Shown piece after piece: positions 24,297-25,878 of a DNA stretch of 64,000 nucleotides. The stretch's first letter is position 1. Every line of letters starts with the position of its first letter. Under the pieces are notes generated by a model. The model saw only the letters and a list, made by a program, of their open reading frames with translations, was not told the origin of the DNA and did not search any database. The position numbers and the translations under genes are program-made. The stretch is from Roseomonas gilardii subsp. gilardii (GTDB taxonomy: Bacteria; Pseudomonadota; Alphaproteobacteria; Acetobacterales; Acetobacteraceae), in contig NZ_CP095554.1 of the NCBI RefSeq assembly GCF_023078375.1, positions 682,001 to 746,000 of the forward strand. The letters run 5' to 3'.

Positions 24297-24410
24297 ACGG
24301 CTTCCCTTTGCCGGCCTGGGGAGGCGTCGCCCTCCGTGGCCCGGGGGGAAGGCTCTGCCTTCGCCCCCGTACCCCCCATCCGCCAGGACCCTGCGGGCCC
24401 TTGCATCTTG

Positions 24411-24600
24411 GGTGATGCGTCCAGGAGACTGGGCGTGCGCCCGGTACCCCGATGAGCCCTTGGGTCCGAGCCCGTGGTCCAGCGCGGGGGCCGGGCGCCT
24501 TGTCCCGCAAAGCCCGAACAGTCGCCTGGAGCGCGCGGTCCTTTGCCGTGGCTCCGCCACGGCAAGGTCTCCTGTGACCCCGCATGCAAGGACGGGCCGC
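24411..24600 (+). ncRNA. candidate IS110 bridge RNA (copy A)
   Basis: The left-end sequence folds in the order known for IS110 bridge RNAs. It starts with a 5' stem-loop GGGCG-TG-CGCCC (24431-24442). A first loop follows with GAGCCCT (24454-24460) and GGTCCAG (24476-24482) flanking a small GGG/CCC stem. A second loop then has ACAGTCGCCT (24518-24527) and ATGCAAG (24584-24590) flanking a 10-bp hairpin (24543-24565). GGTCCAG is the reverse complement of the right target CTGGACC. GAGCCCT matches the left target GGGCCCT at 6 of 7. ACAGTCG equals the right IS end. ATGCAAG is the reverse complement of CTTGCAT at the left IS end. Transcription is not shown; exact ends are estimates. Confidence 0.65.
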
Positions 24601-24618
24601 TCCGGAGGGAGAATGCCC

Positions 24619-25586
24619 ATGGACGCCAGCGCGCCCCTTTTTGTCGGCATCGACGTCGCCAAGGCCCGCTTCGATGCCCACTTCCACCGTCCCGACGCCC
24701 CGGCACCCGACCGGGTGCACCGGCTGGCCCTGCCCAGCAACCCCCAGGGCTATGGCAAGCTGCTCGACGCCCTGCTCCAGGCCGCGCCCACGCGTATCGT
24801 GATCGAGGCCAGCGGCGGCCACGAGGCCACCCTGGTGGCCCTGCTGCACGAGGCCGGCCTGCCGGTGGTGCGCGTCAATCCGCGCCAGACCCGCGACTTC
24901 GCCCGCGCCCTGGGCCGGCTGGCCAAGACCGACCGGCTCGACGCCGAGATCCTGGCCCTCTTTGCCGAGCGCGTCCGCCCCGAGCCGCGCCCGCTGCCCG
25001 ACGAGGCCACCCGCGCGCTGGCCGAACTCGTCGCCCGCCGCCGCCAGCTCGTCGGGATGATCCGCGCCGAGCAGGCCCGCCTGACCACCGCCCGCGCCAG
25101 GCCCCTGCGCGCCCGCCTCGAGGCCCATCTCGCCTGGCTGCGCGGCGAACTCGGCAGCACCGACAGCGAACTCGCCCAGCTCGTCCGCGACACCCCCGCC
25201 TGGGACGACCGCGCCCGCCTGCTCGAGAGCGTGCCCGGCATCGGCCCCACCACCGCCCGCACCCTGCTCGCCGAACTGCCCGAACTCGGCCAGCTCGACC
25301 GCCGCCGCATCGCCTCCCTCGTCGGCGTCGCCCCCTCCACCGCGACAGCGGCTGCCTGCGCGGCACACGCCATATCCGTGGCGGACGCGCCAGCCTGCGC
25401 GCCGCCCTCTACATGGCCGCCCTCGTCGCCAGCCGCTTCAACCCCACCCTGCGCCGCACCTACCAGCGCATGCTCGCCGCCGGCAAACCCAGAAAGCTCG
25501 CCCTCACCGCCCTCATCCGACGCCTCCTCACCATCCTCAACGCCATCGCCAGGTCCAACACTCCCTGGAACAGCCTTCACGCTTGA
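24619..25586 (+). pseudogene. IS110-family transposase, inactivated by a 1-nt deletion
   Basis: The start ATGGAC at 24619 is the one shared with the intact copy (an extra ATG at 24613 is copy-specific). DEDD-domain residues are visible: [25 protein letters not shown] and [10 protein letters not shown]. The frame is lost at about 25336-25341, where SLVGVAP should continue as [10 protein letters not shown]; here one A is missing and one T is C. The remainder ([20 protein letters not shown] to NTPWNSLHA) is intact in the next frame, including the Tnp-domain Ser in [10 protein letters not shown]. Total length matches the 322-aa intact transposase minus one nucleotide. Confidence 0.9.
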
Positions 25587-25878
25587 CTTCCAAGACAGTC
25601 GCTGGACCCAGCTCGTTGGCGCCTGCTGCGGGCCGGATCGCGCCGGAGAGCCTGGCTCTCCGGCGACGGCGGGCGCCACCAGCGCGAAGAGGGTGCATTT
25701 TTCCTTTCGGGAGCCCCGCCGATCCACCTGCTCCACGGATCGGGCGTCAGGCTGGCGGCGCCACCGACACCAACGAAAGCCCGGGGTCCGGGGACCGGCT
25801 TCGGTCCCCGGCGGAGTGGGGGTCCGGGGCGAGAGGCAGCGCCTCTCCCCTGGCGGCCAGCCACGCAGCGCAACCCGT

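Follow-up and report, generated by a model that had tools for sequence, protein, structure and literature searches.

A probable RNA-guided IS110 element in a dispersed hairpin repeat of Roseomonas gilardii

Two IS110 copies within a dispersed repeat

The window (the whole stretch of 64,000 nucleotides analysed here, to which all positions refer) contains two copies of an IS110 element that are 97% identical and that each split a copy of a dispersed repeat. Copy 1 lies between convergent HemN-like and TPR genes, and copy 2 between convergent ABC transporter and MYG1-like genes.

24402..25603, plus strand: IS110 copy 1 (left core CT 24400-24401, right core CT 25602-25603)
24619..25586, plus strand: transposase gene of copy 1, frameshifted near 25338 by a 1-nt deletion
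24338..24401, plus strand: left part of the repeat split by copy 1, with hairpin arm CCAGGACCCTGCGGGCC (start approximate)
25604..25855, plus strand: right part of the repeat split by copy 1 (end approximate)
49305..50503, minus strand: IS110 copy 2
49322..50290, minus strand: intact transposase of copy 2, 322 aa, IS110 family RNA-guided transposase (NF033542)
50504..50575, minus strand: left part of the repeat split by copy 2 (end approximate)
49090..49304, minus strand: right part of the repeat split by copy 2 (end approximate)

The protein of copy 2 carries the DEDD RuvC-like domain PF01548 (93.3 bits) and the Transposase_20 domain PF02371 (74.1 bits), and scores 215 bits against the NCBIfam model NF033542, 'IS110 family RNA-guided transposase', for which the cut-off is 140. 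It matches the solved sequences of ISCro4 (1.8e-42) and IS621 (1e-39), and the serine of the NRDSG motif in its C-terminal domain aligns, in sequence comparison, with a serine of ISCro4. In copy 1, the deletion shifts the frame ahead of this conserved serine, which is thereby lost. A search of the genome-contig set and of viral contigs found no relatives.

Both copies begin with CT-TGCATCTT and end with ACAGTCG-CT; when the left core is set aside, they span TGCATCTTGGG to ACAGTCG-CT. Each has 217 nt of non-coding sequence before the start codon versus 17 nt after the stop. Sub-terminal inverted repeats of the IS1111 type, usually 11-13 bp, were not found in the 40-nt ends, in which the longest exact inverted match is the 6-bp TCTTGG. 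The non-coding region, which IS1111 elements have at the right, lies at the left, so neither mark of that group is present.

The same two full copies were recovered from the genome by a DNA search (40 of 496 first-look candidates scored) and by a protein search (32 of 32 candidates scored). The DNA of the genome also holds a 29-bp remnant of the left end, L004, which has lost its right junction and sits in a third copy of the dispersed repeat at the junction GCGGGCC-CT-TGCATCTTGGG. Read on the strand of the element, the flanks are GCGGGCC-CT and CT-GGACCC for copy 1, and GGGCGCC-CT and CT-GGACCC for copy 2. All three readable left junctions therefore fall at the same CT of the repeat, and a CT core common to target and donor is seen both at these junctions and in the empty repeats. 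The original prediction, made from the sequence of the window, had given the coordinates of both copies correctly and had placed them at one CT in the arm of a dispersed repeat, to which the remnant adds a third case at the same left junction; full copies at unrelated sites, which would have spoken against it, did not appear in either search of the genome. The record of insertions in this genome is small, consisting of two full copies and one remnant.

Judged by eye, the full repeat element seems to consist of consecutive hairpins over some 330 bp, and three more empty copies of it lie in the window (15306-15459, 44193-44343 and 63537-63686). A 156-bp repeat query has at least 50 matches in the genome at E 1e-5 (40 of 173 first-look candidates scored). 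Among 14 further genomes of the genus, the same query gave 40 to 51 matches in three, 1 to 5 in five and none in six; in one of the three repeat-rich genomes (G291) many matches span only the left 70 bp. The target string GGGCCCTGGACC occurs exactly 22 times in the 4.62-Mb genome, and 20 of these places, judged by eye, are in the repeat, with L023 and L024 outside it. When up to one mismatch is allowed it occurs 188 times, compared with 131 times for the reversed control; taken by itself, the short string is therefore only mildly enriched.

The target sits in the 3' arm of a repeat hairpin. Among 44 distinct repeat hairpins, a set biased toward loci fetched through exact target matches, all three tested arm pairs are Watson–Crick in 41 (CCC/GGG in 34, CGC/GCG in 3, CAC/GTG in 2, and GCC/GGC and CTC/GAG in 1 each). 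Target position -4 is thus a natural polymorphism of the arm. The variant GAGCCCTGGACC is present in the genome at one place at least among the matches listed, and the repeat of the related species G159 at the place corresponding to copy 2 reads GTGCCCTGGTCC.

The elements could have reached these sites through recombination or movement of the repeat and not through targeted insertion of their own. Comparison with two related species, G102 and G159, has something to offer this explanation: the site of copy 2 is orthologous to theirs on one flank only, and the lack of collinearity on the other shows that recombination has taken place close to the repeat. However, both species carry the repeat without the element next to the same ABC-transporter gene, and copy 1, copy 2 and L004 lie in repeat copies that differ in sequence and in surroundings. 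A search of the genome for a Y1 transposase gene able to move a REP sequence was also negative, with 0 matches to Y1_Tnp (PF01797; RAYT-like); such genes are present in 5 of 14 control genomes. We consider transport by the repeat extremely unlikely. A similar stretch of G159 was considered as an orthologue of the copy 1 site and was rejected, as its flanking sequence differs.

The left end as a candidate bridge RNA

The non-coding left end has the layout of a bridge RNA, with segments that match the target and the ends of the element in the order listed below.

24402..24618, plus strand: proposed bridge RNA gene, the left non-coding end of copy 1
24452..24460, plus strand: left target guide ATGAGCC+CT, copy 1
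24476..24482, plus strand: right target guide GGTCCAG, copy 1, complementary to CTGGACC
24518..24524, plus strand: left donor guide ACAGTCG, copy 1
24584..24590, plus strand: right donor guide ATGCAAG, copy 1, complementary to CTTGCAT
50445..50453, minus strand: left target guide, copy 2
50423..50429, minus strand: right target guide, copy 2
50381..50387, minus strand: left donor guide, copy 2
50315..50321, minus strand: right donor guide, copy 2

Three of the guides match over their whole length: GGTCCAG to the target (7/7), and ACAGTCG and ATGCAAG to the donor (7/7 each). The left target guide GAGCCCT fits less well; it reaches 6/7 in both copies when the core is counted, and over the seven non-core positions it matches at 4/7 in copy 1 and, by eye, at 4/7 in copy 2. 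The four guide matches of the original prediction were reproduced, although its 6 of 7 for GAGCCCT depends on the core. The A of this guide at position -4 fits the GAG allele of the hairpin arm, which was seen in 1 of the 44 hairpins, in G102, beside the ABC-transporter gene that adjoins copy 2.

The arrangement as a whole is hard to obtain by chance. When the 217-nt left end was shuffled 20,000 times with its dinucleotides preserved, no shuffle contained all four guides in order and 7 contained at least two of the three exact matches; the guide patterns for these tests were picked after the fact. The bridge-RNA-like layout proposed earlier is upheld by the first of these counts. Chance similarity in GC-rich sequence would readily supply one such match on its own, GGTCCAG having appeared in 584 of 20,000 shuffles, but it accounts neither for the ordered set of four nor for the covariation in relatives described below, and we give it a practically negligible probability.

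The left end also folds into a more stable structure than its shuffles (z -3.62, 0/200). In the predicted minimum-energy fold, the target guides would be partly paired with each other and not open. Across 14 aligned left ends, 13 of 27 predicted pairs have both partners altered in one or more sequences. The five outermost predicted 'pairs' correspond to the right donor guide against the end of the element and are therefore no evidence for a stem. In the window, all Rfam families stayed below their gathering scores. Of the two handshake bases, the first is able to pair with target position 7 in all 12 elements compared (in one of them by G-T), and pairing of the second with position 6 is possible in 2 of these 12; the pattern is mostly conservation and was not counted as evidence. 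The right donor guide at 24584-24590 pairs contiguously, 7/7, with the end of the element, whereas the guide of the Rhodovastum element L068 has two extra bases in its middle, which is also the arrangement reported for IS621.

Joining of the right and left ends, as would occur in an excised circle, brings together a pair of promoter-like elements.

25583..25588, plus strand: -35-like TTGACT in the right end
24404..24409, plus strand: -10-like CATCTT, 17 nt from the -35 in the circle only

The resulting TTGACT-N17-CATCTT can be formed by both copies and is a putative sigma-70-like promoter, by motif and spacing. The pattern TTGAC[ACT]-N17-[CT]A[TA]CT[CT] recurs at the joined ends of 23 of 24 copies of the related type-A elements defined below, that is, in 11 of 12 distinct elements, L057 being the one without it. 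The same -35/-10 pair did not appear in type B (10 rows among those listed). Excision is described as rebuilding such a promoter in IS621 (PMC11208160).

Guides and insertion sites in related elements

We compared guides with natural insertion sites in relatives from 299 genomes of the family (41 with a match, E 1e-30), 385 of the class (4, E 1e-60) and 15 of the genus (6, E 1e-50). Each of these search sets included the genome studied here, and some matches yielded no locus. Of the 66 rows examined, duplicates included, 35 carry the right-end motif of type A (A[CG][AG]GT[CT]GCT), 14 carry that of type B (GGATACT), and the other 17 lack both. Ends were set by donor motifs and right guides by an adjoining conserved box, both blind to the target; for L047 and L057, variants of this box were introduced manually once the left ends had been viewed. 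The right guide was scored in 24 of the 35 type-A rows: three duplicates (L040, L073 and L091) were removed, as were eight rows with no usable left end (L042, L043, L046, L060, L063, L074, L075 and L076). L045, which lacks a right end, was used for the left side only.

The right target guides predict the real flanks almost completely. Over 11 distinct guides, with one site taken for each, 53 of 55 non-core positions match, and permutation of guides among sites gave a mean of 19.6 (sd 4.8, maximum 45), with 0 of 100,000 permutations reaching 53. The singletons L041, L044, L047, L049 and L057 have very different right targets, and each is matched by its own guide at 5/5 non-core positions. Site fit can drop among copies of one element, as in L098, in which the right guide matches at only 3/5. 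For 12 elements, the left target guides match at 55 of 77 positions, against a mean of 31.7 after permutation (0 of 50,000), with a match of 3 or 4 of 7 in W1, L045, L049, L057 and L081. A further left guide, that of L072, matches at 4/7 and was left out since it is identical to that of L068. RNA-guided homing to the host repeat, as first proposed, is supported by this covariation of guide and target, together with the L004 remnant and the promoter elements of the circle junction.

In the more distant type B elements (L050, L051, L052, L054, L055 and others), the left ends resemble TGTCTTATG and the right ends read GGATACT. A guide rule for this group, written after the sequences had been viewed, gave a guide in 13 of 14 rows; under it, right guides match at 45 of the 55 positions in 11 distinct pairs of guide and site (mean after permutation 29.9, sd 2.8; 0 of 50,000), with weak rows in L048 (0/5) and L058 (3/5).

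The copies of one genome, G022, do not fit. The left ends of L074, L075 and L076 are nearly identical and part of the left flank is common to them, but each has a right flank of its own. Among all N6-AG-C 8-mers of the 230 nt before the start, no right guide fitting them was found; in each row the best one matches at 2 to 3 of 5 positions. Either the guide lies elsewhere than the rule looks, or targeting is looser in these copies. The left flank shared by L074 and L076 runs, by eye, into what appears to be another transposase gene.

Host repeats are the targets in several of the other genomes. In Rhodovastum atsumiense (G143), the chromosome carries four copies that are identical, with TGGTCCAG as right guide, all at CTGGACC in CCAGGGC-N3-GCCCTGG hairpins, and a plasmid carries one with right guide TGGTCGAG at a CTCGACC site that lies, by eye, outside such a hairpin. 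Of 1150 positions compared, 118 distinguish the plasmid copy from the chromosomal ones; only four of these differences fall in the left end, and one of the four creates the guide TGGTCGAG. The two kinds of copy are a natural example of retargeting. The repeat of this genome reads CCAGGGC-N3-GCCCTGGACC, and GCCCTGGACC is counted 239 times versus 46 in the reversed control; 8 of 12 target-string places are, by eye, in a CCAGGGC-type hairpin. Five copies in G578 lie in CTCATCCTGAGG, a nearly palindromic 12-mer with 149 occurrences versus 0 in the reversed control, which by eye often forms inverted pairs about 90-100 bases apart in the 12 places viewed. G674 has five copies in GTC[AG]TCCTGA (target GTC[AG]TCCTGACG); there GTCATCCTGACG is found 20 times versus 0 in the reversed control, and by eye 10 of 12 target-string places are in a CTGACG..GTCAG palindrome. 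Guides and target repeats differ among G143, G578, G674 and the genome studied here, so one IS110 clade homes to different host repeats with different guides.

That the targets are so often palindromic could mean that the transposase protein itself recognises a repeat hairpin, with the RNA guides incidental. Four multi-copy genomes agree with such recognition in having the target in a palindrome-bearing repeat (the present genome, G143 for 4 of 5 copies, G578 and G674; the multi-copy G022 is left out of this count). Yet the targets differ completely among relatives and still track the guides at those 53 of 55 positions, and the five singletons, with their differing right targets, are each matched 5/5. 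Recognition by the protein is thus very unlikely, and guidance by the RNA remains our preferred reading.

Two further observations concern the right side of these elements. In L047 and L081, additional sequence separates the transposase stop from the right end, which lies well past it; in L045, which is similar to both, no standard right end occurs within the stretch examined.

Proposed mechanism and relation to known systems

We conclude that this is very probably an IS621-type IS110 element that is guided by RNA into the dispersed intergenic repeat of its host at the CT. By analogy with IS621, the element would excise as a circle, and the promoter at the circle junction would transcribe a bridge RNA of about 180 nt from the left end, a length and a transcription modelled on IS621. 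The target loop (ATGAGCC-CT and GGTCCAG) would read CT-GGACC in the arm of the repeat hairpin, and the donor loop (ACAGTCG and ATGCAAG) would read the junction of the circle. The DEDD/Ser recombinase would then join target and donor at the CT, by the catalysis expected from IS621, and the intergenic repeats, again as proposed by analogy, may serve as a harmless haven. Several points count against this reading: the left guide of the element itself, which matches at 4/7 non-core positions, the frameshift of copy 1, the misfit of the three G022 copies, the 0/5 of the type B row L048, the partial pairing of the target guides with each other in the minimum-energy fold, the contiguous pairing of the right donor guide, which IS621 is reported not to have, and the small number of insertions in this genome. 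Copy 1 could perhaps still move using the protein of copy 2, because all four of its guides are intact despite the frameshift.

The elements may, more tentatively, live by tracking repeats, their target guides being rewritten to match the palindromic repeat of each alphaproteobacterial host. This idea, which we would call possible but rather doubtful, would have guide changes follow the repeat alleles of the host and not drift; what is seen is GGGCCCTGGACC in the genome studied here, CCAGGGC-N3-GCCCTGGACC in Rhodovastum, CTCATCCTGAGG in G578 and GTC[AG]TCCTGACG in G674. The differing guide/repeat pairs may reflect either adaptive tracking or a founder effect.

ISPsy8, ISPa11, ISPpu9, ISPpu10, ISRm19 and ISRm22 are IS110-type elements, and ISEc11 and ISXne4 are of the IS1111 type. 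The former six resemble the present element in inserting site-specifically into dispersed palindromes of the host, in their case REP sequences (PMC1525189); the abstract of that report does not mention a guide RNA, and the repeat described here differs in being longer, in having several hairpins and in belonging to a genus of the Acetobacteraceae. The seekRNAs of ISEc11, ISXne4 and ISEc21 offer a parallel in that both natural and experimental retargeting proceed through the target-matching parts of the RNA (PMC11187229); that of ISEc21, an IS110 element, is given as 74 nt long (PMC11187229).

The closest likeness is to IS621 of Escherichia coli, as described in two reports (PMC11208160, PMC11208158), with which the element shares the recombinase family, the CT core, a predicted left-end RNA with the target loop followed by the donor loop, the order and strand sense of the four guides, a putative promoter rebuilt at the circle junction and insertion in dispersed extragenic palindromes. 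Unlike IS621, it has another host and another repeat, and its right target guide comprises seven nucleotides with the core; some IS621 orthologues are reported to have a longer right target guide than IS621 itself (PMC11208160). The right donor guide is contiguous here, whereas interrupted pairing is reported for IS621 (PMC11208160, PMC11208158), and the hairpin of the donor loop is longer than in aligned relatives. This is not a new kind of system, as both RNA-guided insertion of IS110 elements and homing to extragenic palindromes are published (PMC11208160, PMC11187229, PMC1525189), and the basic mechanism has been in print since 2024. A search of the titles and abstract openings of open-licence literature found no published description of this Roseomonas element in its repeat.

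The relatives provide a natural, target-blind and independent confirmation that the guide segments of IS110 elements dictate insertion sites. They also form a small comparative series of related elements that have different guides and different host repeats, through which retargeting on entry into a new host becomes testable. Copy 2 offers an intact recombinase together with a right guide of seven nucleotides and a donor guide that pairs contiguously.

The genome of R. gilardii also contains L003 (G000:C1:1627387-1627481; L003:1501-1595), a decayed remnant of the guide loops without a readable junction. Its target-loop remnant has different guides, with a right-guide-like AGCCCAG, and it may perhaps derive from an element with another target.
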